Shown here: piece by piece, positions 10,127 through 56,664 of the stretch
Position numbering within the stretch: position 1 is the stretch's first letter
Layout of the letters: the number at the start of each line of letters is the position of its first letter
Assembly: GCF_038500265.1 (NCBI RefSeq)
Contig: NZ_CP150637.1
Location: 129,001-193,000 of the forward strand
Reading direction: 5' to 3'
DNA length: 64,000 nucleotides
From: Ignatzschineria larvae DSM 13226
Lineage (GTDB): Bacteria > Pseudomonadota > Gammaproteobacteria > Cardiobacteriales > Wohlfahrtiimonadaceae
Made by a program: the position numbers and the translations under genes
The notes under the pieces: model-generated
Seen by the model: only the letters and a program-made list of their open reading frames with translations
Databases searched by the model: none
Told to the model about the DNA's origin: nothing

Positions 10127-11575
10127 ATGCTCAACATAATTAAAAAGAAAATATTACAATTTTTGCCAAAAAATCATATTACTAGAGGAATTAGTATATT
10201 AGTTGGCGGCACTTTTAGCGCACAGTTATTAATGATAATAGCTATGCCGATTTTAACCAGATTATACACTCCTGAAGATTTTGGGTTACTAGCTATTTAT
10301 GCAAGCCTCTTGGGTATCTTAGTAGTAATTGCTGGATTAAGTTATGATTCAGCCATTCCGATTCCAGAAAGTGATAAAGAAGCCGCACATCTAACCATAC
10401 TTAGTTTGTTTTCAGTCGCAGCTTGGACAGCTATTACATTTTTATTAGTAATTCTTTTTCGTAAAAATATTGCAATATATTTTGGAAATTTAAATTTAGA
10501 AATTTATTTATGGCTACTTCCTTTCGGGGTATTTTTAGGAGCAAGTTACTATGTATATCATTTTTGGGCAATTAGATCTCGCAATTTTACAAATATAGCA
10601 ACAACTCAAGTACAACAAAAACTAGTTACCCTTATTATTCAGTTGATTGGTTTTAAATTTGGGACTTTTAGCCTAATATTCGGACAAACTCTAGGGCAAG
10701 GTTCTGGGATTATCAAATTAGCTAAACCAACATTTACTGATCCAAATTTCAAAGATTGGAAGTTCACAGACCTTAAAAAGATTGCAATTAAATATAAAAA
10801 ATACCCTATTTTTGTCACAACTGAAGGTTTAGCTAATACCGCTAGTGGTCAGTTGCCACCGCTTTTATTGGCAATCTTTTTTTCACCAGTAATTGCAGGA
10901 TTTTATGCTTTATCTCATAGAGTTTTAGTTTTACCCATTACTTTAATTAGCAATGCAGTAAAAAATGTTTTTCTATCTAATGCGGCAACCTCTTATAGAG
11001 AAGGAACGCTAGACCAATCATTCAGTAAAGTAATAGATATTCTGTCAGCAATTATGATACCTATGATGGGCATCATATTTATAGGAGGGCCGCAACTATT
11101 TAGTTTTGTTTTTGGAGATCAGTGGATAATTGCCGGGGAGTATTCTAGATGGATGACTTTTTGGTTAGGAATGGTATTTATAGCATCTCCCTTGAATAAT
11201 CTTTTTCTAGTTTTAAACAAACAACAAGAGGGATTATATTTTCAGTTAATCATGCTCGCGTTGAGAACACTATCATTATTAATAGGTTACTTTTTTGAAA
11301 GTAATTTATTAGCGATTATATTATTTTCTTTCTCAAGTGGGCTTTGTTGGGTATTTGTTATTTTAAGGCTGAGTTTTTTAATTAATATAAACTTTGCAGT
11401 TTTACAATTAAATTTATTGAAAAGATTTTTACATTCAATACTGTTACTGCTACCTTTCACAATAGGTAGCCTTGTTAATAACAATATTTTCTTTTGGGTG
11501 TCTCTCATTATTAGCCTTGTTATTATTTTTATTTATTATTTTTACAATTTTAGAAGAGAGTTTTATGCCTGTTAA
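10127..11575 (+). CDS. wzx: O-antigen flippase (Wzx-like)
   Basis: 482 residues with about 12-14 hydrophobic helices. The N-terminal part ILVGGTFSAQLLMIIAMPIL and TRLYTPEDFGLLAIYASLLG is typical of the polysaccharide transport (PST/MOP) flippase family. It would move undecaprenyl-diphosphate-linked repeat units across the inner membrane. It is the only flippase candidate in the locus, and a Wzy and Wzz are both present. Base composition becomes clearly AT-richer from here than in wbpA-wbpE. It overlaps the following gene by 11 bases, indicating coupled translation. Confidence 0.85.
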   Translation: MLNIIKKKILQFLPKNHITRGISILVGGTFSAQLLMIIAMPILTRLYTPEDFGLLAIYASLLGILVVIAGLSYDSAIPIPESDKEAAHLTILSLFSVAAWTAITFLLVILFRKNIAIYFGNLNLEIYLWLLPFGVFLGASYYVYHFWAIRSRNFTNIATTQVQQKLVTLIIQLIGFKFGTFSLIFGQTLGQGSGIIKLAKPTFTDPNFKDWKFTDLKKIAIKYKKYPIFVTTEGLANTASGQLPPLLLAIFFSPVIAGFYALSHRVLVLPITLISNAVKNVFLSNAATSYREGTLDQSFSKVIDILSAIMIPMMGIIFIGGPQLFSFVFGDQWIIAGEYSRWMTFWLGMVFIASPLNNLFLVLNKQQEGLYFQLIMLALRTLSLLIGYFFESNLLAIILFSFSSGLCWVFVILRLSFLININFAVLQLNLLKRFLHSILLLLPFTIGSLVNNNIFFWVSLIISLVIIFIYYFYNFRREFYAC

Positions 11576-13127
11576 TATTCACTTAACCAAAAATTATACG
11601 GATCAATATAACTGTAAAATTTCCGGCTCCATAGTCCATCAAGAAGCTTTTATAGAAGAATTAACAAAAGACTCTACTGATGCATATATTGATTTAATTT
11701 CCAAATTAAATGGTTTTTACTACATTATTTATCAAGCGGATAACTTATTATATGCTTCCGTTGATCATATTCGTTCAAATCCTCTCTTTTATGCATTAAT
11801 AGATGATACTTTATATTTAAGTGATTCGGCTGAATGGATCAGAAAAGAGCTGAAAATTGAAGAGATGGATTCATTATTTAAGCAAGAGTTTTTACATACA
11901 GGATTCGTAACTGGTAGCGATACACTTTATGCTGAAATTAAGCAATTACGGGCTGGAGAATCCTTAAAGTTTGAGAATGGAAAATTAGAATTAATTCGAC
12001 ATTACGAATATGTGCACCATGAACCACAAGTTTACAGTGAAGAGCTATTATCAAAAGAACTATACAATGCGCTTAAGAAAAGCTTCAATAATCTGGTCAA
12101 TTATGCAAATGGCAGACAAATTGTAATTCCACTAAGTGGCGGATATGATTCACGTCTAGTGGCAATAATGCTTAAAGAGATTGGTTATGAGAATATAGTC
12201 ACTTTTACGTATGGCATTAAAGATAATAAAGAAGCGCAATATAGCAAAATTGTTGCCGATGCTTTGGGACTTGATTGGTTCTTTGTTGAATATACACCAG
12301 AGCTTTGGCAGAAAGCTTGGGCATCTTCAGTGCGATATGAATATCAAGTAATGGCCTCTAATGGTGTCAGTCTACCTCATGTTCAAGATTGGTTAGCAGT
12401 TAAGCTCATTAGAGAACAAAAATTAGTTGATGATGCGATCTTTGTTCCTGGCCATGGGGGAGATTTTTTAGCGGGATGTGATATTCCTACGTTTGTTGTT
12501 GAAAAAGAAATCACTTATACCAAGAACGAATTACTCAATGAAATATTGGCTTACTATTATACTCTTTCCCCAATAGAAAATAATACTGATCGCAATCATT
12601 TTACCCAAAGAATAGCGAATATGGGCCCTATTAATCTGGAAAGGCTATCAGCGATAGATTATGCTGATCAGTATGAAAAATGGGTATGGCAAGAACAAGA
12701 ATCAAAATTTATCTGTAATTCTGTCAGAGTTTATGAGTTTTTTAATTATGATTGGTGGATGCCTTTATGTGATAAAGAACTATTTAATTATTTTTCTACG
12801 TTACCATTGAATCTTAGAAATCATAGGTGGTACCAAGATTATGTCTCAAATTTATTTTCTAAATATTATAAAAATTCGCTTACAAATGCTTCAGATATGG
12901 GCAGTATCTTAAATAAATTAAGAGCTTTTGCTTTGAAAGATACTTGGTGTGCTAATCAATTAAAAAAAATATACAGAACATTATTCAAAAAGGGAAATCT
13001 TGCCACATCATCTCGCTATCCACAAGTAGAGTATCAACAGCTAATCAATAAAGGCTATAGTCGCAACGGCATCGCGGCTTACTTTTTTATCCAAGATATG
13101 GAGCGTAAATCTTCATGCGAAAAATAA
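11565..13127 (+). CDS. Asparagine-synthetase-like amidotransferase of the O-antigen locus
   Basis: 520 residues from the ATG at 11565, which follows AGAGAG and overlaps the wzx end; the longer in-frame start at 11472 would lie entirely within wzx. The C-terminal part is an AsnB-type synthetase domain with the PPi loop LSGGYDSR (about 192-199) and further ATP-site segments. The N-terminal ~180 residues look like a degenerate class II glutaminase domain (VDHIRSNPLFYA matches the usual 'D..G.RPLYY' region) but begin MPVNIHLTKN, without the nucleophilic Cys2. Related genes in other O-antigen loci are proposed to turn uronic acids into uronamides. With WbpABDE making a diacetamido uronic acid, amidation of that sugar is a plausible but untested role. 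Confidence 0.75.
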   Translation: MPVNIHLTKNYTDQYNCKISGSIVHQEAFIEELTKDSTDAYIDLISKLNGFYYIIYQADNLLYASVDHIRSNPLFYALIDDTLYLSDSAEWIRKELKIEEMDSLFKQEFLHTGFVTGSDTLYAEIKQLRAGESLKFENGKLELIRHYEYVHHEPQVYSEELLSKELYNALKKSFNNLVNYANGRQIVIPLSGGYDSRLVAIMLKEIGYENIVTFTYGIKDNKEAQYSKIVADALGLDWFFVEYTPELWQKAWASSVRYEYQVMASNGVSLPHVQDWLAVKLIREQKLVDDAIFVPGHGGDFLAGCDIPTFVVEKEITYTKNELLNEILAYYYTLSPIENNTDRNHFTQRIANMGPINLERLSAIDYADQYEKWVWQEQESKFICNSVRVYEFFNYDWWMPLCDKELFNYFSTLPLNLRNHRWYQDYVSNLFSKYYKNSLTNASDMGSILNKLRAFALKDTWCANQLKKIYRTLFKKGNLATSSRYPQVEYQQLINKGYSRNGIAAYFFIQDMERKSSCEK

Positions 13128-29640: not shown

Positions 29641-30858
29641 ATGATATTTACAAGAGTAAAGGTGAAAAACTTATACTGCTTCGAAGAGACAGAGCTAGAT
29701 TTAACCTATCCAAGAAGAATTACAGATAGCGTGATCGAGCATGAATATTTAGATGAACGAGCTTCTAATTTTAGATTCAAACGGTTATGCATTATCTCTG
29801 GTGCCAATGCTTCTGGGAAAAGCTCATTTGGAAAAGTGATGTTAGATATTATCAATATCATATCGAGAGGCCGGGAATGGGCAGAGAAACATAGTTATCA
29901 TTTAACGGTAGAAGATCAGCCCGGAGAGATAGAGGTTGAGTTTGTCTATCCTACTGCATCACAATTAAAGTTCAGAACGCTTTTTCTACAAATACATTCA
30001 GGGATTTTTAAGTTTAGATACGCAGAATGCCCTATCTCAAAATATGATAGTGTTGAGCGTTGTAGAGAGAAAATAGCGGGTATCTTGGAGAATAAAAGAG
30101 CGCATGGATCTAGTATCTATTTAGATAACCTTGATGGGGATAGCTATCACTCAAAATGGGATGCGTTAGAAAAACAACTCTCTGAAGAGCCACTTTCTAA
30201 AAGCTGGGCGTTTATTATTTCGAACATCAATAACTCATCGGATGCTCATTATATTGATAAAGAGAATAAAAACTATAAGTCCATATTATTGAAAATATTG
30301 AAAACATTTGATCCTTCAATTGAGAGAATTGCGGATATTTTTGAAGAAGATAGCGAAGGCAATCGATATATAACGGGCTATCGTATCTATTTTTCTAATG
30401 GAAAACATTGTGCAATGAATGAGAAAGGTGAACTTGATCGGGAATATGCGCACCTGTTTTCACAAGGAACTTATCAAGGCATTGCAGTTGCTGGATTTAC
30501 GCATAATCTAATAAGAGAGATGTCTCACCCGAAAGTATCGGGGACTTTCTTTTTAGATGAAAAGATGTCCAATAGTCATACGGAAATAGAGCGGGAGATC
30601 GTGAATTTATTGGCGCAAAAGACCAATAGATACTCTCAGTTTTTTTATACGACCCATAATTACGATATATTGGAAATGGGCTTTCCGATGCACTCTTTTG
30701 TGTTTATAAAGAGAGAGAGAGGCGGGAATCCTCAGTTTATATGGGCTGATCAAGCTTGTAATAAAAACGATAGGAATATTTTAAGTTATGTAAAAAATAA
30801 TTTTTTTAATACCATTCCTGATGTAAGTTTATTGGATGAAATCTTATGGGCAGAATAA
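29641..30858 (+). CDS. Stand-alone AAA15-type ATPase (RloA/AbiL-like)
   Basis: 405 residues. It begins MIFTRVKVKNLYCFEE, the usual N-terminal strand of AAA15 proteins; Walker A is SGANASGKSS (53-62). An ABC-like signature SQGTYQGI is near 279-286, a Walker B-like TFFLDEKM near 301-308, and an H-loop FYTTHNYDIL near 335-344. The second acidic position is present (DE), but the context after it is unusual (KMSN instead of PENSLH). No TM or nuclease domain is seen. Proteins of this shape occur in restriction/abortive-infection islands. There is no obvious partner gene: the next gene is convergent and unrelated. Function unknown. Confidence 0.75.
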   Translation: MIFTRVKVKNLYCFEETELDLTYPRRITDSVIEHEYLDERASNFRFKRLCIISGANASGKSSFGKVMLDIINIISRGREWAEKHSYHLTVEDQPGEIEVEFVYPTASQLKFRTLFLQIHSGIFKFRYAECPISKYDSVERCREKIAGILENKRAHGSSIYLDNLDGDSYHSKWDALEKQLSEEPLSKSWAFIISNINNSSDAHYIDKENKNYKSILLKILKTFDPSIERIADIFEEDSEGNRYITGYRIYFSNGKHCAMNEKGELDREYAHLFSQGTYQGIAVAGFTHNLIREMSHPKVSGTFFLDEKMSNSHTEIEREIVNLLAQKTNRYSQFFYTTHNYDILEMGFPMHSFVFIKRERGGNPQFIWADQACNKNDRNILSYVKNNFFNTIPDVSLLDEILWAE

Positions 30859-40459: not shown

Positions 40460-41227
40460 ATGACAACTTTCACCAATCCATTGCCCCAATATCGCCCTTG
40501 TACTATAGAGGATTATACCAAGCGTGCATTTGTCCATCATGAGATTGCCCGTAGAATGGTGGAGTATCTTGAGGCGGATCTAGCGCCTCAATCCATTTGG
40601 GTGGATGGCGCGCGTGATCATTATTTGACGGAATTACTGCAAGCGCGTTTTCCTGAGGCGGTGATTTATGAAAATATCTACGATAATGGCATGGCGGATC
40701 CGCAATTATTGCGCGTGGATATGGTGATCAGCAATCTCTATTTGCAAGATCTATGGGAATTAGAAGATCGAATCCGAGCCTATCAATTAGCGCTCAATGC
40801 CGGCGGAAAACTCTTTTTTACCACAATCGGTGTTGGGAGTTTTCAAGATTTGAGTCATGCCGAAGGGCCTGCGATCAATCAATTTCCGGATATTGAAGAT
40901 ATTGGGGATTTTCTACACGCGCTTGGCTTTAAAAATGCGGTGCTCTTTATTGAAAAGATCAATCTAACCTATGAGCGCTTATCAACGCTTCTATTAGATG
41001 CCAAAGCGGTTGCCGGCAAGCCTTTTACGCCGACCCAAGGATTACGTACGCGCCATTGGATTGCAAAATGGTATCGTTATTGTGATCAATTCCGTAAAGA
41101 AGATGGGATTTATGAAATCGGTTTAGATGTAATTTATGCCGAGGGTTCGCTCTCTGATATTAAAAATATCCAAGGGCAGAGCAACGAAGTCTATGTCGAT
41201 ATTAACAATCTCAAGAAGCCAGAATAG
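40460..41227 (+). CDS. BioC-like methyltransferase with degenerate SAM site
   Basis: 255 residues, the length of BioC malonyl-ACP methyltransferases, with matching late landmarks: VDMVISNLYLQDLWELEDRI (motif IV region, about 92-111), FFTTIGVGSFQDL (about 117-129), IEDIGDFLHALGFKNAVLFI and LTYERLSTLLLDAKAV. The SAM-binding motif I, normally DLGCGTG, is replaced by VDGARDH (about 48-54), and the usual acidic ribose-binding position is unclear. It may be an inactive or repurposed relative. No other biotin gene is nearby. It sits between two blocks of GC-rich repeats. Confidence 0.7.
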   Translation: MTTFTNPLPQYRPCTIEDYTKRAFVHHEIARRMVEYLEADLAPQSIWVDGARDHYLTELLQARFPEAVIYENIYDNGMADPQLLRVDMVISNLYLQDLWELEDRIRAYQLALNAGGKLFFTTIGVGSFQDLSHAEGPAINQFPDIEDIGDFLHALGFKNAVLFIEKINLTYERLSTLLLDAKAVAGKPFTPTQGLRTRHWIAKWYRYCDQFRKEDGIYEIGLDVIYAEGSLSDIKNIQGQSNEVYVDINNLKKPE

Positions 41228-42640: not shown

Positions 42641-42791
42641 CCTATTATTAAATAATGATCTGTTGAAAGAGAGAAGTGATATCCATTTCTTGCTATTTAC
42701 GGTAAAATAGCACTAATTTAGTTCTATATTGTTATTGAATATTTCATTGCACAATGATGCCAAGTCAAACGCATGATTGAAGGGAGAAAAG

Positions 42792-43109
42792 ATGTTTACA
42801 GTAACGGATGCGGCAAAAACACAATTAGTCAAAAATTTAGAGGGAAGCAGTGCCGAAGCGATTCGAATAGCGCTCCAAAAATCAGGCTGTTCTGGCTATA
42901 AATACTATATTGATTTCTGTGATCAAGTGGATGATCGCGTTGAAATCTTATTAGAAAGCCCCATTATGGTAGTTGCTGATAAGGACATTTTACCTTATCT
43001 CGAGAATGTGACACTTGATTATATTCAAGATGGTATTAATCGGATGTTTAAGTTTAGCAATCCCGCTGCAAAAGCAGAATGTGGTTGTGGTGAGAGTTTT
43101 ATGCTTTAA
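42792..43109 (+). CDS. IscA/HesB-family iron-sulfur assembly protein
   Basis: 105 residues, typical length. The first conserved Cys is in KSGCSGYKYYIDF (about 31-43) and the C-terminal pair in ECGCGESF (about 97-104). A-type carriers deliver Fe-S clusters to target enzymes. ATG 42792 follows AAGGGAGAAAAG. It is isolated from other isc/suf genes, so IscA, ErpA and SufA-like roles cannot be separated. The asparagine synthetase gene follows 58 bases later. Confidence 0.88.
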   Translation: MFTVTDAAKTQLVKNLEGSSAEAIRIALQKSGCSGYKYYIDFCDQVDDRVEILLESPIMVVADKDILPYLENVTLDYIQDGINRMFKFSNPAAKAECGCGESFML

Positions 43110-43167: not shown

Positions 43168-44946
43168 ATGAGTGGAATCGCTGGAGTATTAAAGTTAAAT
43201 CAGACTGCCGTAGATGAATCACTATTACAGAAAATGGCAGAGCCGATTGTCAAACGCGGGCCTGATGGTACGAATATCTTTCGCCGGAAAATGGTGGGAT
43301 TAGTCCATACACGTTTGCAAGCGGTGAGTAATGGGATGGAACCTTTCTTTGATGAGGCGCTCGGCATTGCTGTGGCGACCAATGGAACGGTTTACAATCA
43401 GGCAGAAATTCGAGAAGAGCTTCGGGAAGTGGGTTATCAATTTTATACCGAATCTCAAGCGGAAGTCTTAACGAAAGCGTATCACTGCTGGGGCAATCTC
43501 TTTGTGGAGAAACTCGATGGGGCTTATGCCATTGCCCTTTGGAATGATGCGCAAGAGACACTACTTTTAGTCCGTGACCGCTTTGGTAAAAAACCACTCT
43601 ACTACGGCTTTGGTCAATCAGGTGAGGCGTTCTATTTCGGTTCTAATACCCAGAGTATTATGCAGAGTCAAGATGTGGATACTTCGATCGATCCTGAAGC
43701 ACTGCACTTTATGTACTCTCTGCACGCAGTGGTGCCGGCGCCGCTGACGATCCTTAAAGGGATTCGTAAAATCGCCCCGGGAAGCTACATGGTGATACAA
43801 CATAATGGAATGGCCACAGAAACCGGTTATTGGGATTTGACGGCGAAACGTGATTATCCTGAATATGATCACGAAACCTGGAAAGAGGTCATTGAGAGCG
43901 CATTAACTTCGGCGGTTGTCAAAGAGATGGGCTCGGCGAATGAACCGGTGGGTGTATTGCTCTCGGGCGGCTTAGATTCCACATTGATTACGGCACTAGC
44001 GCTTGAATCGGGGGTTAAAGGGATTCAAACTTTCTCTGTGGGCTTTGAAGATCAGCCTGAAGAGAAGGGCTCGGAGTTCTTCTATTCAGATCAATTTGTC
44101 GATAAGTATCAAACAGATCACTATAAATTTGAGATTCCGAATAGCGAGGTTTTACTCAGGCTCCCTGAAGCGGTGCGGAATATGAGTGAACCGCTCTTTG
44201 GGCAGGATGCCATTGGCTTCTATCTACTCTCTGAAAAGGTGAAAACGAAAGCCTCAGTAGTACAGAGTGGACAGGGTGCAGATGAGCTCTTTGCGGGTTA
44301 TTTCTGGTATCCTCAGATGGTAGAGAGTGGTGAATTTGACCCGTATGAGCGTTTTGCCCAATATTATCTTGACCGACCACATTCAGAAACATTGGATCTG
44401 TTCACAAAACCGTATCAGGTAGGCGATATCGCCGGCGATTTTATCCGTGATCATTTAACACGAGATGGCGCAGAAACGTTCTTAGATAAAGTATTACGCT
44501 TCGATGTGACTCGCTTAGCGGTAGATGATCCTATTAAACGGGTGGATAATATGACCATGGCACATGGTTTAGAAGCGCGTATGCCTTTCTTAGATCAGCG
44601 TTTAGTGGAATTAACGATGGCAATGCCGCCGGAATATAAATTGATGCATAACGGTAAAGGGATCTTAAAAGAGATCGCCAGAGGTCGTGTACCCGATGAT
44701 ATTATCGATCGTAAAAAAGCGTACTTCCCAATGCCGGCGCTTAAATATGTACGTGGAGAATTCTTAGAGATGATGACCGATTTAGTGACAAGCGAGAAAG
44801 CGAAATCGCGGGGCATCTTCAATCAAGCGTATATCGCAGATCTCATCAAAAATCCAGAAGCTCCATCAAGCTTTACCAATATTCAAGGCTCGAAATTGTG
44901 GCAAGCAGCGCTGCTTGAGATGTGGTTAGAGTCGATGGGACTGTAG
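43168..44946 (+). CDS. asnB: Asparagine synthetase B-type protein lacking the catalytic Cys
   Basis: 592 residues. The N-terminal ~200 residues are a class II glutaminase domain and 210-560 the synthetase domain with LLSGGLDSTLI (about 263-273) and MPFLDQRLVEL. The start codon is followed by AGT, so the protein begins MSGIAGV where active enzymes have MCGIAGV: the N-terminal nucleophile Cys is Ser. In addition NGEIYN is NGTVYN and the usual D-T-E is Q-A-E, so residues that hold glutamine are also changed; Arg and RGPDG remain. It may use free ammonia. The start is fixed because no other frame gives the GIAGV sequence. A strong terminator follows. Confidence 0.88.
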   Translation: MSGIAGVLKLNQTAVDESLLQKMAEPIVKRGPDGTNIFRRKMVGLVHTRLQAVSNGMEPFFDEALGIAVATNGTVYNQAEIREELREVGYQFYTESQAEVLTKAYHCWGNLFVEKLDGAYAIALWNDAQETLLLVRDRFGKKPLYYGFGQSGEAFYFGSNTQSIMQSQDVDTSIDPEALHFMYSLHAVVPAPLTILKGIRKIAPGSYMVIQHNGMATETGYWDLTAKRDYPEYDHETWKEVIESALTSAVVKEMGSANEPVGVLLSGGLDSTLITALALESGVKGIQTFSVGFEDQPEEKGSEFFYSDQFVDKYQTDHYKFEIPNSEVLLRLPEAVRNMSEPLFGQDAIGFYLLSEKVKTKASVVQSGQGADELFAGYFWYPQMVESGEFDPYERFAQYYLDRPHSETLDLFTKPYQVGDIAGDFIRDHLTRDGAETFLDKVLRFDVTRLAVDDPIKRVDNMTMAHGLEARMPFLDQRLVELTMAMPPEYKLMHNGKGILKEIARGRVPDDIIDRKKAYFPMPALKYVRGEFLEMMTDLVTSEKAKSRGIFNQAYIADLIKNPEAPSSFTNIQGSKLWQAALLEMWLESMGL

Positions 44947-46799: not shown

Positions 46800-47103
46800 C
46801 GGATATTAAATATTATTTCTAGACCATAGCACCTATTTTTTAATGTATCCGCTTGTCTAATAATGGTTATGTTTATTTAATGTATATATCAAATAATGAT
46901 TGAGATTAAACTATGTAGTCTATTATTCGCATGTTTATCTTTATTTATATGTATTTTAGTAAAATTCTGTAATAAAATTAATAGAAATATAAAAATTTTT
47001 AATTCAAACATCACCATTATTTTTAACAAAATATGAGCAATATAAAAATTATTTTAGTTGTTGATATAAATAAAGCGTGATAATGATTTTATGGAGAAAG
47101 TTA
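46800..47103. promoter_or_regulatory. AT-rich upstream region of the autotransporter gene
   Basis: About 300 bases of very AT-rich DNA without genes. It presumably carries the autotransporter promoter; the ribosome site GGAGAAAG (47093-47100) precedes the chosen ATG by 3 bases. Confidence 0.45.
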
Positions 47104-50100
47104 ATGAATAATGTATTTAAAGTACTATGGAGTCAATTGCTTGGTCGTTGGATAGTAACTTCTGAGTTGGGCAAGTCAAATAAGAAACTATCTCGTTCTA
47201 AAAGTCGTACATTAACATTGATAATAATGGGTATCTCTACTCTCGCAGGAACAGTTCAAGCAGATGAGATACCGGAAGGGCTGACTCCATTTCCTGGAGA
47301 TAAGTCTAAGTATGATTCAGGCAGTTATTACATAACTGCGCCCGAGTTATCTCAATATTATTCTACTAGTAAATCCTTTAAGCTAGTTGAGGATACTTAT
47401 CTTGAAGTTGAAGGGTGTGAGCGTGAGCGTGAGTGTAAAGTATTGGACGGTAACAATAAAGCAGTTAGCCTTGAATATAATGTTTCTCAAGGAAGTCCTG
47501 TAACGGAGTTATATCTAAAAGATCTTACGTTACAGAATATTGAGTTAAAGGAAACTTCTAGTAACGGCGCGGGTACTTTATCACTCGTATTAGATAACGT
47601 TACATTTGGAAAGAACTCTAAATATACTAGAGGAGATCTTAGGTCCGCACCAGGTGGCCTTGAACGTAATGAAGAGATAAAATTCTTAAATGTGCAAGGT
47701 GATATTGAAATTCAAGCTAGAGAAGATAGTGATAAAGGAGATCATATTGTATTTACCTTAGGGAATGGAACAAAAATTAACTCCGCTAATTTTGGGAGTG
47801 AGGATGGGACTGCGGGGTCTGTAGAGATTGAGTTCCAAAATGGGATCGCTAATAAATTTACGGGTGATAATAAGAGCGAAGTAGCTAAAGTAGAAAGTAC
47901 CGGCGGTATTGCTGAGATGACTCTGCGTTTTAGTGGGAATGAATCTATTACGAGAGATTTAGATACAGGAAAGTTATCCGTCTCAACCTATGCGAAACAG
48001 GATTATGTGTTAACTGATGATGATGTCACTGTTTTAAAGGGGAAAGATAATAATTCTATTTTACAGCAGTTAAAGGCATCGGATGAGTTAAAGACACCTG
48101 ATGATAAGGATATACAGGGCGGTAAAATCATTGTGGGGAGAAATGCCACTATTCGTGATGGTGTGCTTTTAACGAAAGAGCTGTTCGATGAAGGTGATTA
48201 TAAGGATCATCGATTTAATTTACTCATTGAAGCTGATGATCAATATGGTACAGGCACTTACATCTATACGGCAGCGGATAATGCCTTTGTCCATAATGTT
48301 GAAGTGGAAAAAGGGGCAACCTTCGGCGTAGATATTGCTGAGAGTGAAGATTTTACATTTGGCGTTCGTATTGATGGAGAAAGGGGAGGCTTAAATTTCC
48401 ATGATAATTCAAATTTTGTAGTCTATTCGGGCCGTGTTGCTACAGCAGAGGCGAATAAGACCTCTACTGATCAGGCTAGTGCTCATTTTATAGTAAAAGA
48501 GCAAGGAACCGTTGTCCACAAGGCTGACGAAGAGGGAAGATTGGATAATCTCACCTTAGAGGGTGGGGCAATTCAGTTGACAGGCACAACAGGTAATGAT
48601 GAGAATTGGGGCGTTAATCAGCTCAAGATTGATGGCGAAAAAGGATTAACCATCAACAAAGGCGAGAGCAATAAAATCATCTGGGATGAGATGCCAGCGG
48701 GTGGTGCAAACTATGATACCACTAAAAATATTCTCGATCAGCAGGAGGTGACTTCCGCTATTTTGGTGGAGGTAGCTGAAGGGAATCCTTTGAAGGTGGA
48801 AAAAGATGCGAAAATGACACTCAGCTCTTCCAAAGAGAGTCAAGAGAGTCAAGAGATCAATGTCGATATGTCGCAAAAATATGACTCGACAGAAGCGTTT
48901 CTCGATAAAGACGATATTCCTCTTAATAAAATCGGTGATTATAAACAAGGTAATGACGTAATTGGTCAAGTATGGGGCAGGACCGCAGCCTCCGTCAATA
49001 AGCAGAATATTGGTGTTGCTAGTGGTATCGCTGCACTTGAGTCCTATGAGGGTAAACAGCAGATTATCTTAAAGCCGAGTGATAATAATAATGAAGTGAA
49101 AATCAAGCTCACAGGTAAGGGAGGCTTTGATTTAAACGGTGGTGATGATAATAATCCGCTTATTTTGAATAATTCGAGTAATGACTTCACCGGCGAAAGT
49201 CAAATTTCAAGTGGTATTGTCCAACTAGGGAAGGATGAAGCCTTAGGTAATGCCTCAGATCTAATCATCAAGGAGGGAGCAACGCTTGACCTTAATAATA
49301 ACAAGCAACATATCAATAATCTGACTGCAGATAAAAGTTCAACCCTTAATACTGGAGATGGGGATAACAAAGGGCAGTTAATCCTAAATGATGGAAAAAT
49401 ACTTACATTAAATAATAATGGCATTACAGGTAAAGGCAGTACAACCATCGGGAAAGAAAGTCACCTTAAAGCACCGGGTGATACCACTATCGAGGGGAGT
49501 TTAGTCAATAATGGTAATATCTATATCGGCACGCAGGTGAAAGAGGCAGAAGAGGGCGGAAATTATGGGGTCTTGACGGTCGGCGGCGGGTATACCGGGA
49601 ATGAGGATTCTAAGATCCATTTTGGTACCGAATTAAATGGTGATAGATCGGAGAGCGATAAACTTGTTATCAAGGGTAAACTTGAAGGAAGTGGCTCTTC
49701 TGTGATTGTGAAGAACATTGATGGAAAAGGCGCTAAAACAGAAAACGGTATTCAATTAATTGAGGCACCTAATTCTGATAATCCTAATGATAAATTCTTC
49801 TACCTTAATGAAAAGGAAGATGGTGTATTGACCGCTGGGGCATACACCTATGAGCTTAAAAAAAACAAGGGTAGCTGGTATTTAGTCTCTGATGAAACGA
49901 AGCCAGAAGAACCAGGAGACGATAAACCCGGTGGTGGCGATAACCCGAACGGTGGCGATAATCCGAACGGTGGCGATAATCCGAACGGTGGCGATAATCC
50001 GAACGGTGGCGATAATCCGAACGGTGGCGATAACCCGAACGGTGGCGATAATCCGAACGGAGGCGATAACCCGAACGGTGGCGATACTCCTGGAGGCGAT

Positions 50101-51054
50101 AACCCATCAGAGCCTAATCCATCGAGAGTGCCGGCACATTATGGTAGCTATTTAGCGAACCACGTTGCAGCGAATACACTCTTCAATCACAAGTTGCATG
50201 ATCGTCAATTCTTTAATGAAGAGAAGACGCTGTGGGGGCGTATCGATGGGGATTTTGGTCGCTTCAAAGATAGTGTCGGCAATAGTAAAACCCGTATTGA
50301 TAACTATGTTATGCAAATAGGGGGAGATATCTATCGTAATGATGATCAAGATCATCCCTTTAAATTAGGGCTGATGGCGGCTTATGGTTATAGCAAGAGT
50401 AAGACCACAAACCATTTAGCGAAGAATAATAATATTCGCACCTCAAAAGGTTCAGCAAATGGTTATGCCTTAGGTATTTATGGGACTTATGGTGATATTG
50501 AAGGGTTCTATACAGATGCGTGGTTGCAATATGTCAATATGCGCTCAAAGGTGAAGTCAAAAGCCTATCTCTATGAAAAAGAGCAGAGTTACCGTAATAA
50601 AGGTTGGGTCGCATCGCTTGAGATGGGGTATACCTTCTATCCTCAAGATGACGAAGATTTCATGGTTCAACCACAAGCGCAGGCTATCTGGATGAATGTG
50701 AAACAAGATAACCATGTTGCCACTGATGGGACAAAGATGAGTGCAGATAAGAGTAATATGCAGTTGCGTTTAGGGGTTCGCTTACAGAATCGTTATCAGA
50801 GAACTGCAGGATTCCAGCCTTATGGGGAGCTTAATTATATTCACAATACCCGTAATTTTAGAGTGGATTCTTTCCATAATACGACAGGGGATTATAGTGT
50901 CAGTGCATTAGGTCGTAATTTGGGTCAGATTAAAGTCGGAGCACATCGGCACTTAAATCGTGATTCCTCAGTATGGGGTGAACTCTCTTATACCTTCGGT
51001 TCTCATAGCTACCATAGTGCAAAGGTCTCGCTGGGTTATAAAAAAGAGCTCTAA
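47104..51054 (+). CDS. Type Va autotransporter with ESPR and (NPNGGD)n linker
   Basis: 1316 residues from ATG 47104. MNNVFKVLWSQLLGRWIVTS (1-20) is an extended signal peptide region (ESPR), followed by a basic stretch and a hydrophobic core cut after VQA (about 53). The passenger (about 54-935) is a low-complexity, Asn/Gly/Asp-rich repetitive region expected to form a beta-helix, with two Cys near 105-112. A Pro/Gly/Asn/Asp linker follows, then eight NPNGGD repeats (947-994), and a C-terminal beta-barrel (about 1009-1316) starting HYGSYLANHVAANTLFNHKL. The last residues are GYKKEL; most barrels end in Phe or Trp. Adhesin or biofilm role is the usual one for this class. The GTG-start extension from 47077 is rejected. 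Confidence 0.88.
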   Translation: MNNVFKVLWSQLLGRWIVTSELGKSNKKLSRSKSRTLTLIIMGISTLAGTVQADEIPEGLTPFPGDKSKYDSGSYYITAPELSQYYSTSKSFKLVEDTYLEVEGCERERECKVLDGNNKAVSLEYNVSQGSPVTELYLKDLTLQNIELKETSSNGAGTLSLVLDNVTFGKNSKYTRGDLRSAPGGLERNEEIKFLNVQGDIEIQAREDSDKGDHIVFTLGNGTKINSANFGSEDGTAGSVEIEFQNGIANKFTGDNKSEVAKVESTGGIAEMTLRFSGNESITRDLDTGKLSVSTYAKQDYVLTDDDVTVLKGKDNNSILQQLKASDELKTPDDKDIQGGKIIVGRNATIRDGVLLTKELFDEGDYKDHRFNLLIEADDQYGTGTYIYTAADNAFVHNVEVEKGATFGVDIAESEDFTFGVRIDGERGGLNFHDNSNFVVYSGRVATAEANKTSTDQASAHFIVKEQGTVVHKADEEGRLDNLTLEGGAIQLTGTTGNDENWGVNQLKIDGEKGLTINKGESNKIIWDEMPAGGANYDTTKNILDQQEVTSAILVEVAEGNPLKVEKDAKMTLSSSKESQESQEINVDMSQKYDSTEAFLDKDDIPLNKIGDYKQGNDVIGQVWGRTAASVNKQNIGVASGIAALESYEGKQQIILKPSDNNNEVKIKLTGKGGFDLNGGDDNNPLILNNSSNDFTGESQISSGIVQLGKDEALGNASDLIIKEGATLDLNNNKQHINNLTADKSSTLNTGDGDNKGQLILNDGKILTLNNNGITGKGSTTIGKESHLKAPGDTTIEGSLVNNGNIYIGTQVKEAEEGGNYGVLTVGGGYTGNEDSKIHFGTELNGDRSESDKLVIKGKLEGSGSSVIVKNIDGKGAKTENGIQLIEAPNSDNPNDKFFYLNEKEDGVLTAGAYTYELKKNKGSWYLVSDETKPEEPGDDKPGGGDNPNGGDNPNGGDNPNGGDNPNGGDNPNGGDNPNGGDNPNGGDNPNGGDTPGGDNPSEPNPSRVPAHYGSYLANHVAANTLFNHKLHDRQFFNEEKTLWGRIDGDFGRFKDSVGNSKTRIDNYVMQIGGDIYRNDDQDHPFKLGLMAAYGYSKSKTTNHLAKNNNIRTSKGSANGYALGIYGTYGDIEGFYTDAWLQYVNMRSKVKSKAYLYEKEQSYRNKGWVASLEMGYTFYPQDDEDFMVQPQAQAIWMNVKQDNHVATDGTKMSADKSNMQLRLGVRLQNRYQRTAGFQPYGELNYIHNTRNFRVDSFHNTTGDYSVSALGRNLGQIKVGAHRHLNRDSSVWGELSYTFGSHSYHSAKVSLGYKKEL
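49942..50085 (+). repeat. Eight 18-bp tandem repeats encoding NPNGGD
   Basis: The unit AAYCCGAACGGTGGCGAT is repeated eight times with only third-position changes (and one GGA for GGT). Being a multiple of three, gain or loss of units by slippage would change linker length without breaking the frame. Confidence 0.95.
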
Positions 51055-53781: not shown

Positions 53782-54631
53782 GGGGCTGTTGAACATTGCA
53801 GTTCAAAATAAAAAAAGCGAGCGGTAGAATATTATCGTCAAAAAAAACCTACCTCTCGCTATGTCTCGAACCATGCTTACAGATAAACTATGGCTGAAAC
53901 TGAAGCCTATTCTCCTAGATTTGAATATCTATGACAAACCAAATTTAAGAAATATCGTTGAGGGTATTCTATTTAGAATGAGAACAGGTGTTCCTTGGAG
54001 GGATATTCCTGAGCAATTTGGGCGACCTAATACTATTTTTAAAACTTTTAGTCGTTGGTCTAAAAATAACAAGCTCTTGAAATTATTTAAAAAACTATCA
54101 CAAGATGTTGACTATGAATGGCTGTTTATAGATGCAACTCACATTAGAGCTCACCAGCATAGCACAGGAGCAACCGCAGATAATCCTCAAGCAATATCTA
54201 AAAGTGTTGGTGGAAATAGTTCAAAAATTCATATGATCGTAGATGCTTGCGGTAATCCCTGTGAATTTATCGTAACAGATGGAACGACCCACGATATCAA
54301 GGTCGCTCCAGAGCTACTTAGCAGGGTTCATTTAAATACGACAGATTACGTTAGTGCAGATAAAGGTTATGATTCTGAGAGTTTTAGAGAAGATATTATA
54401 AATCAAGGAGCTAAAGCTATTATTCCTAAAAAGAGGAATACTCTTACGAATAATAATCATATGGACTGGCATATTTATAAAACTCGGCATTTAGTGGAGA
54501 ATGCATTTGCAAGGCTGAAACATTTTAGAAGTATAGCAACAAGATATGACAAGCTAAAACAACATTATGAAAACAACGTTGCTTTAGCTTGTGCCTATAT
54601 TTGGCTGAAGTTATGAATGTTCAACAGCCCC
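53782..54631 (+). mobile_element. Complete IS5-family insertion sequence (850 bp)
   Basis: Perfect 16-bp terminal inverted repeats GGGGCTGTTGAACATT (53782-53797) and its complement (54616-54631) surround a single transposase gene. The TA dinucleotide on both sides (53780-53781 and 54632-54633) is the target duplication, as in the IS427-like group of IS5. The transposase is unbroken, so the element may still move. Confidence 0.92.
53861..54616 (+). CDS. IS5-family DDE transposase
   Basis: 251 residues. The N-terminal DUF4096-type domain (RNIVEGILFRMRTGVPWRDI, about 29-48) precedes the DDE core: LFIDATHIRAH (first Asp, about 89), VSADKGYDSESFRE (second Asp, about 167) and RHLVENAFARLKHFR (Glu, about 218). 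All three catalytic acids are present and the frame is intact. The stop codon overlaps the right inverted repeat. It catalyses transposition of its own element. Confidence 0.95.
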   Translation: MSRTMLTDKLWLKLKPILLDLNIYDKPNLRNIVEGILFRMRTGVPWRDIPEQFGRPNTIFKTFSRWSKNNKLLKLFKKLSQDVDYEWLFIDATHIRAHQHSTGATADNPQAISKSVGGNSSKIHMIVDACGNPCEFIVTDGTTHDIKVAPELLSRVHLNTTDYVSADKGYDSESFREDIINQGAKAIIPKKRNTLTNNNHMDWHIYKTRHLVENAFARLKHFRSIATRYDKLKQHYENNVALACAYIWLKL

Positions 54632-54834: not shown

Positions 54835-56664
54835 GTGGTACAACATTCCAAAGAAACTGAACTCTGTACTGCCGGCGTTGATCTTGAAGGATTGATGCAG
54901 GTTTTAAGTAAACATCTCTACTCAACGCCGATGGTGGCATTGCGAGAGTTAGTGCAAAATGGCCACGATTCAATCATTCGTCGGCAGTTAGAAACCCATA
55001 ACAGCGATTTTGATCGACGAATTACAGTGTTAGGCTTTCCAGAGAAGCAGCAACTTAAAATTATCGATACCGGTGCAGGTTTAACCCACGATGAGATCCA
55101 CGCTTTTTTAGCGACGGTAGGCGTCGGTTATACGCGCACACTTCGGCAAGAAGATGATGAAACGGGGCTGATTGGAATGTTTGGCTTAGGGTTTCTTTCG
55201 GCATTTGTATTAGCCGATGAGGTAGAATTTGCCACAACCTCTTATCAAACGCCGGAGCAAGGTTGGGTGTATCGTTCTAAAAATGCGGAGCACTATTTTG
55301 TAGAAGCCATAGCCCCTCGTGCGATTGGGAGTGAAATTACCCTCTATCTCAAAGATGAATATGCTTTTTTAGCACAAGCGGAAATTCTCAATAATATTTT
55401 AGGTCGTTACTGCATTTTATTGAAAGAGCCGATCTTTATTAATCAGAGTCGAACAGCGATTAATGAGAAGCGTCCCCCTTGGGAGCGTGATCCGGCGATT
55501 GTGTTACATCCTGCACAGAAATTACGGCAAGATTTAGAGTTTGCCAAACGCTTTGAACCGGTTTTTGAACCGATTGCCACAATGCCAGTGACACCTGATG
55601 GCAAGAGCGATGCAATAGGATTACTGTGGGTTCAAGATGGGGCAACGTATGGTACGAGTGATAATCGGCATCTCTCGATCTTTCTTCGGGGGATGTTACT
55701 CGATGATGATGCCCGAGATCTTCTGCCAACGTGGGCAGGATTTATCGGCGGTGTGATTGAATCGCAAAAATTAGTGCCGACAGCCAGCCGAGAAGATCTG
55801 CAAAAGGATGCGCATTATGATGCAATTCGCTATGCTTTAAGTGAGGCGATTATCGCCGGATTAGCGGAGATTGCTGAGAAACAACCGGAAGCGTGGCGCC
55901 GGATTTTAACGCGGCATAATGAAGCGCTATTAGGGGCATCCCTTTGTGATGAACGATTATTCTCAATTTTGAAAGATCACCTGCGGATACCTACTTCCCA
56001 AGGGGAATTACTACTCAAAGATCTCAAAGTCGATGGCACCCTTTATGTGATGCTCGGCAGTAATGGTGGATTTGAAGATACTCTTTTTCGTGCGCTTAAA
56101 GTGCCGGTTGCTTTTGGGGATCGTTATGCGGTAGTGCCATTTTTGCGCCGAGCAGTGCAAGTGGGTCGAGGTCGACTAATTGAGATCGGGACGGATAAAG
56201 GGAATGAACAGCTCTTTACCACAGCGAAATTAACAGCAGAAGTGCAAACGTGGTTATCAGAGCACATTGGTGATGATGAGCAGATTATTGCCGCGCGTTT
56301 TATGCCTGAAGAGTTGCCCCTTGTTGTGGTGATAGATCGTGAAATGGAATTGAAGAAGCGATTAGAAGCAGATGAAGCGGATAAGAAGATGTCGCAAGCG
56401 GCGCTTCGTCTTGCAAGGCTGTTTACGCAACGTATTGAGAGCGGTAGTGATCAGAAATTGTATCTTAATCTCAATAATTCTGCCGTTAAGCAATTACTTG
56501 AAGCAATTGAATCTAACCCCGTGCAGGCAGAGAGAGCCGCACCGCTATTAAAAGCACTCAAAGTGTTAATGTCCGGGAGAGATCAATCGCAATCGCTCAA
56601 TTTAAATGAAGCTTTAAATGTTTATACTCAAACGCTCAATCAGTTATTAACCAGTAAAAGTTGA
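54835..56664 (+). CDS. Hsp90-family (HtpG-like) ATPase
   Basis: 609 residues. The N-terminal GHKL ATPase has ALRELVQNGHDSIIRR (36-51), the N-box with Asn; IIDTGAGLTHDEI (about 76-88); and GMFGLGFLSAFVLADEVEFA (about 115-134), equivalent to HtpG's GVGFYSAF. The middle part has LRGMLLDDDARDLLP and PTASREDLQKD, the Arg-containing S-R-E segment of Hsp90 middle domains. The C-terminal third is divergent from classical HtpG. The start is GTG 54835, with AAAGGA 9 bases before. It is followed by a large TPR-like gene, so it may be a specialised chaperone acting with that partner. Confidence 0.85.
   Translation: MVQHSKETELCTAGVDLEGLMQVLSKHLYSTPMVALRELVQNGHDSIIRRQLETHNSDFDRRITVLGFPEKQQLKIIDTGAGLTHDEIHAFLATVGVGYTRTLRQEDDETGLIGMFGLGFLSAFVLADEVEFATTSYQTPEQGWVYRSKNAEHYFVEAIAPRAIGSEITLYLKDEYAFLAQAEILNNILGRYCILLKEPIFINQSRTAINEKRPPWERDPAIVLHPAQKLRQDLEFAKRFEPVFEPIATMPVTPDGKSDAIGLLWVQDGATYGTSDNRHLSIFLRGMLLDDDARDLLPTWAGFIGGVIESQKLVPTASREDLQKDAHYDAIRYALSEAIIAGLAEIAEKQPEAWRRILTRHNEALLGASLCDERLFSILKDHLRIPTSQGELLLKDLKVDGTLYVMLGSNGGFEDTLFRALKVPVAFGDRYAVVPFLRRAVQVGRGRLIEIGTDKGNEQLFTTAKLTAEVQTWLSEHIGDDEQIIAARFMPEELPLVVVIDREMELKKRLEADEADKKMSQAALRLARLFTQRIESGSDQKLYLNLNNSAVKQLLEAIESNPVQAERAAPLLKALKVLMSGRDQSQSLNLNEALNVYTQTLNQLLTSKS

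Follow-up and report, generated by a model that had tools for sequence, protein, structure and literature searches.

We found that the asparagine synthetase-like gene of Ignatzschineria larvae DSM 13226, a fly-associated bacterium, encodes a two-domain amidotransferase in which serine takes the place of the catalytic cysteine. Its closest homologues form an AsnO-like orphan clade with members in many families of Gammaproteobacteria. Our results suggest that this clade is the glutathione amide synthetase and that the Ignatzschineria enzyme, having lost Cys2, is driven by free ammonia, a reading to which we assign a probability of roughly 0.6. Glutathione as the acceptor, its amide as the product and ammonia as the donor are what we infer from sequence comparisons. 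Judged by its residues, the glutaminase site is dead, the change is fixed and the synthetase domain is kept.

Coordinates refer to the window, that is, the whole stretch of 64,000 nucleotides that was analysed (contig NZ_CP150637.1, positions 129,001 to 193,000), and are collected in Table 1. The gene starts with ATG AGT GGA ATC GCT at 43168, preceded by a Shine-Dalgarno-like stretch with GGA, and stays open up to a TAG at 44944-44946. It codes for 592 amino acids, comprising a class II GATase and an Asn_synthase domain, and the protein shares 99% identity with its I. ureiclastica counterpart. With AGT as codon 2, the N-terminal Cys of class II enzymes is absent, just as the first-pass annotation of this DNA had read it. 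A second Asn_synthase (PF00733) protein of the window, at 11472-13127, has no recognised GATase domain and sits in a polysaccharide gene cluster with a flippase, a DegT aminotransferase and a GNAT acetyltransferase.

Table 1. Positions in the window of the amidotransferase gene, its parts and its conserved neighbours.
Feature	Position	Strand	Basis
BioC-like methyltransferase, below family cut-off; conserved neighbour in Ignatzschineria, Wohlfahrtiimonas and the sister genus	40460..41227	+	
A-type Fe-S carrier (TIGR00049), immediate upstream neighbour	42777..43109	+	
Amidotransferase ORF, TIGR03104 (AsnO-like) orphan clade; proposed ammonia-dependent glutathione amide synthetase	43168..44946	+	sequence, profile, tree, model
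GATase (Ntn) domain, residues about 1-190; predicted folded, constrained within the genus, glutamine-site residues changed	43168..43737	+	
AGT, Ser2, replacing the N-terminal nucleophile Cys of class II glutamine amidotransferases	43171..43173	+	
Arg49 (human ASNS Arg48, glutamine contact); Arg here, Lys/Thr/Gln/His in other Ser2 species	43312..43314	+	
Asn72-Gly73 (human ASNS Asn74-Gly75), kept in all Ser2 members	43381..43386	+	
Gln97, replacing the glutamine-binding Asp (human ASNS Asp96)	43456..43458	+	
Synthetase domain PF00733, intact, with SGGLDS and SGQGADE motifs	43891..44931	+	

Comparison with 57 related genomes revealed that the serine is not peculiar to this assembly. AGT occupies codon 2 in all eight Ignatzschineria genomes, representing eight species, with an intact 5' end (a ninth homologue is cut by a contig end) and in both genomes, from two species, of the sister genus. 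Carriers of Ser2 include I. ureiclastica, I. cameli, Ca. I. merdigallinarum and Ignatzschineria sp. F8392. The five sequences of Wohlfahrtiimonas, the nearest relatives, all have Cys2, as does every other gammaproteobacterial homologue checked; among 79 homologues from genome contigs, 73 have Cys2 and the other six belong to the Ser2 lineages of Ignatzschineria and the sister genus. In the tree, the Ser2 proteins form a single clade (support 100) beside Wohlfahrtiimonas, and therefore the change from Cys2 to Ser2 occurred once. Hence the alignment of homologues that the first-pass annotation had put forward as a check finds Ser2 fixed in both genera, and its argument against a sequencing error is borne out, such an error being ruled out by the same codon in independent genomes. 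A decaying pseudogene is likewise ruled out, as the reading frame is intact throughout and dN is low in both domains.

The loss extends well into the glutamine pocket. At least some Ser2 proteins are altered at 14 of the 52 GATase positions that are invariant in Cys2 homologues, and at 12 of the 143 such positions in the rest of the protein. The GATase positions lost include Cys2, His47, Arg49, Gln58, Phe71, Asp97 and an Asp within a three-residue deletion; His47, Arg49, Gln58, Phe71 and the deletion had escaped the first-pass annotation. In human ASNS, glutamine is bound by a network of Arg48, Val52, Asn74, Gly75, Glu76 and Asp96 (PMC6748925). Of the glutamine-contacting Arg and Asp of class II enzymes, the I. 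larvae protein keeps Arg49, which is lost in most Ser2 relatives, and has Gln in place of Asp97. The earlier reading of Q-A-E for D-T-E as a genuine change is confirmed by this last replacement, which falls on an Asp invariant in Cys2 homologues. By contrast, NGTVYN for NGEIYN had been mistaken for a lost function: Thr, Ala or Cys is usual at the Glu76 equivalent of the functional Cys2 family, whose norm is NG[TCA]IYN. Position 97 is Gln in Ignatzschineria and still Asp in the sister genus, which suggests that Ser2 preceded the erosion of the glutamine pocket.

On the other hand, the GATase domain has not been discarded. The Asn-Gly motif is retained (N72-G73) and the structure model is confident (mean pLDDT 89.5), predicting an Ntn fold, with TsnB9, E. 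coli AsnB (1ct9) and human ASNS (6gq3) as the nearest folds. N- to C-domain dN ratios are 1.0-2.0 within Ignatzschineria and thus no higher than the 1.6-3.0 of Cys2 Wohlfahrtiimonas, so that the domain is constrained within the genus. Between genera, its divergence is unusually fast; in one example, N-domain identity is 0.49, compared with 0.69-0.76 in Cys2 pairs of equal C-domain identity. Such constraint on a domain with a dead site means that a structural or tunnel role is needed, and this counts against our explanation. Serine-type Ntn hydrolases exist, and purifying selection on the domain would also be expected if Ser2 itself were the N-terminal nucleophile and glutamine were still used. 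However, other glutamine contacts have been lost as well (Arg49, Asp97) and the class II relatives examined have Cys, and we regard a Ser2 nucleophile as highly improbable.

With respect to family, the protein scores 748.4 bits against TIGR03104 (N-acetylglutaminylglutamine amidotransferase; curated cut-off, 570.1) and 375 bits against TIGR01536 (asparagine synthase; cut-off, 267). Going by the first score, the NCBI model would name it an amidotransferase of the osmolyte N-acetylglutaminylglutamine amide (NAGGN). It also shares domain order and length with AsnO of Sinorhizobium and Pseudomonas (PA3459), and AsnO, like the enzyme proposed here, acts on the C-terminal carboxylate of a peptide. 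Nevertheless, the best match to the partner enzyme Ngg (TIGR03103) in this genome reaches 21 bits against a cut-off of 569, and no member of the genome's family has a match over the cut-off. NAGGN synthesis is ruled out by this absence. Unlike AsnO, the Ignatzschineria gene has neither Ngg nor M42 peptidase genes beside it and carries Ser2, and its clade, which lacks a NAGGN partner, shows H379->F and other clade-specific changes in the synthetase domain and is split from the AsnO of the NAGGN trio at 99% local support. One genome (G045) even has both genes, the orphan and a trio copy, each at its own locus. Altogether, a function in NAGGN synthesis is extremely improbable.

The first-pass annotation had taken the protein for an asparagine synthetase, possibly ammonia-dependent, and had proposed asparagine prototrophy as a test. 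An enzyme that amidates free aspartate with ammonia and so supplies asparagine would fit the fold and the superfamily, including the TIGR01536 score, and the protein is the sole full-length member of the AsnB family that we found in the genome, where AsnA was not found. Against this, the TIGR03104 score is twice as high. Moreover, AsnRS was not found in this genome either, GatB was, and the same pattern (no AsnRS, no AsnA, GatB present) recurs throughout Ignatzschineria, Wohlfahrtiimonas and the sister genus. Protein asparagine is therefore made on the tRNA and free asparagine is unneeded for protein synthesis, which rules out an asparagine synthetase for protein asparagine and renders prototrophy uninformative about this gene. 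Most other families of the order have neither the orphan gene nor AsnRS nor AsnA, and they manage without it. In addition, an asparagine synthetase would not predict the changes in glutathione reductase and GrxD described below. The protein has the Ntn GATase and ATP-PPase folds in common with AsnB and human ASNS, of which 1ct9 and 6gq3 are close matches, but identity is about 20%, no asparagine role is expected, and the glutamine-site Cys and Asp, and in most Ser2 species the Arg, are lost. By family and genome context, then, this is no ordinary asparagine synthetase, and an ammonia-dependent version of one is quite unlikely. In the same family, one genome of low completeness (G010) encodes AsnRS and lacks the orphan gene; no glutathione reductase or glutathione synthetase match was obtained in it.

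The evidence for a different acceptor comes from glutathione-binding proteins. AsnO acts on a dipeptide, which it amidates at the C-terminal carboxylate (PMC8070244, PMC13060819). In glutathione amide, the C-terminal glycine carboxylate of glutathione, a redox buffer of the cell, is amidated; a proposed proxy for this thiol is a glutathione reductase with Glu in place of Arg at position 21 (PMC8877833). We therefore tested whether the orphan gene and Glu21 occur together. Position 21 was read in 143 sequences (three rows by eye), after setting aside seven from genomes with a weaker or trio-type homologue only. Glu21 was found in 60 of the 66 sequences from gene-carrying genomes, the rest being five Gln and one Asn, and in 4 of the 77 from gene-less genomes, which have mostly Arg or Asn. 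Tallied by hand at the family level, the figures are 33/38 with the gene and 3/41 without it. The Fisher p value is about 1e-27 by sequence and 1e-13 by family, neither being corrected on the species tree. The correlation is imperfect, and both the non-Glu carriers and the Glu non-carriers weigh against our explanation; all four of the latter are fragmented assemblies. The reductase of G056, a genome whose only homologue is trio AsnO, has Arg21. Arg21 is also the residue of Halorhodospira.

The same association holds closer to Ignatzschineria. Within the order, the reductases of Ignatzschineria, including that of this genome, the sister genus and Wohlfahrtiimonas have Glu21, and those of gene-less families have Arg or Lys. 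Among named carrier genomes, 17 of 18 glutathione reductases have Glu21 (Thiorhodospira, Hydrogenovibrio, Leucothrix and Thioalkalivibrio among them), the exception being Granulosicoccaceae, with Asn. A glutathione synthetase scores over its cut-off in the Ignatzschineria genome, and glutathione is thus predicted to be made in the cell. The first description of glutathione amide, from purple sulfur bacteria, reportedly dates from 1996; a reductase and a peroxidase for it are known. In Marichromatium gracile, whose system comprises a glutathione amide reductase and a glutathione-amide peroxidase, the reductase structure (2r9z) has Glu at the same place as the reductases of gene carriers. The literature that we searched, a part of the whole, gave no name for the enzyme that makes the amide, and the orphan clade is a candidate for it. 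One metabolomics study, in which glutathione amide was not detected in Allochromatium vinosum (PMC4213376), speaks against our explanation.

A second signature lies in GrxD, whose gene adjoins the orphan gene in many Cys2 genomes. The position equivalent to Arg97 of human GLRX5, which we take to be Arg59 in E. coli Grx4, is Arg in the aligned E. coli, plant and human sequences, E. coli being the only gammaproteobacterial control. The 63 Cys2-carrier genomes that encode GrxD near the orphan gene all have Phe, Met, Leu or Tyr at this position. The Arg of monothiol glutaredoxins can make contact with the carboxyl group of glutathione's glycine (PMC7138851). Thus, a positive charge facing that carboxylate has been lost or reversed in two unrelated glutathione-binding proteins of gene carriers, and the simplest cause would be that the carboxylate is amidated by the product of the orphan gene. 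For Ignatzschineria, a search of 864 kb of this 2.56 Mb genome yielded no GrxD.

In the mechanism that we propose, a gammaproteobacterial clade of two-domain, AsnB-fold enzymes, distinct from the true NAGGN amidotransferase AsnO, would form glutathione amide by amidating glutathione at its glycine carboxylate. Ordinary members would use Cys2 to hydrolyse glutamine, and the ammonia would travel along an internal tunnel to the synthetase site, at which ATP would adenylate the acceptor carboxylate. The change of Cys2 to Ser would date from the ancestor that Ignatzschineria shares with the sister genus; the glutamine pocket would then have eroded, leaving an enzyme that takes free ammonia directly. 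As the reductase has the same Glu in Ignatzschineria and in Cys2 Wohlfahrtiimonas, the product probably stayed the same when Ser2 arose, and it is the nitrogen source that probably changed. The first-pass annotation had offered ammonia dependence or a newly acquired acceptor. Ammonia is the most economical reading and an acceptor other than aspartate is most likely, but that acceptor already differed in the Cys2 relatives and so did not come with Ser2. The claim of an intact synthetase domain holds, PF00733 being matched with both the SGGLDS and SGQGADE motifs.

Beta-lactam synthetase and carbapenam synthetase (CarA) are AsnB-fold enzymes that no longer use glutamine, and loss of the glutaminase is typical of AsnB relatives with other nucleophiles. 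Since the fold matches, the enzyme could by analogy with these Cys-less lactam synthetases join glutathione or another peptide to a larger amine, such as a polyamine or an amino acid, and Glu21 would also suit a glutathionyl-amine disulfide. This is unlikely, however: the ammonia used by the Cys2 sister enzymes must come from glutamine, the reductases of Ser2 and Cys2 genera alike have Glu21, suggesting an unchanged product, and Asn72-Gly73 and the synthetase residues are retained. Whereas the lactam synthetases close a ring with an internal amine, in Ignatzschineria the product is probably unchanged and only the nitrogen source altered.

Ammonia is a plausible donor. This genome has a urease operon, with ureC (L370:513-2231) and ureE, ureF, ureG and ureD-like ORFs, so free ammonia should be plentiful. 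Ammonia is the physiological donor of single-domain NAD synthetase (PMC3376133), and the related nitrile synthetase PesC, like canonical asparagine synthetases, takes ammonia in place of glutamine (PMC13060819). Unlike single-domain NAD synthetase, in which the glutaminase domain is absent, the Ignatzschineria enzyme retains this domain with a dead active site. Conservation of the degenerate domain might reflect docking of a separate glutaminase that supplies the ammonia, but no candidate partner occurs in the conserved neighbourhood and urease is a simpler source, which makes a docked glutaminase very unlikely.

The A-type Fe-S carrier gene upstream is conserved in most Ignatzschineria, Wohlfahrtiimonas and the sister genus. 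An ORF of 600-700 amino acids (cluster 7) follows the amidotransferase gene in Wohlfahrtiimonas (L046, L051, L123, L124) and lies nearby in most Ignatzschineria (downstream flanks of L040, L041, L043, L119, L120); this window lacks it, and a U32 peptidase comes after the amidotransferase in its stead. Elsewhere in the window we noted a possible defence gene for an AAA_21 (AbiEii/OLD-like) ATPase (29641-30858), a 1325-aa protein with an (NPNGGD)n repeat array and then a C-terminal autotransporter-like barrel (47077-51054), an IS5-type transposase ORF near a malate:quinone oxidoreductase gene (53861-54616), and a 609-aa divergent HSP90-like protein with only partial HSP90 and GHKL-ATPase matches (54835-56664).

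A specific gene family is now proposed for glutathione amide synthesis, backed by two independent signatures in glutathione-binding proteins. If this is true, the annotation as N-acetylglutaminylglutamine amidotransferase or asparagine synthase is wrong for many genes. Glutathione amide would then replace glutathione in a large share of Gammaproteobacteria, beyond the purple sulfur bacteria, and the main thiol of many of these organisms would have been mis-assigned. Ignatzschineria, for its part, would have a class II amidotransferase that switched naturally to ammonia, giving up glutamine while retaining a dead glutaminase domain.
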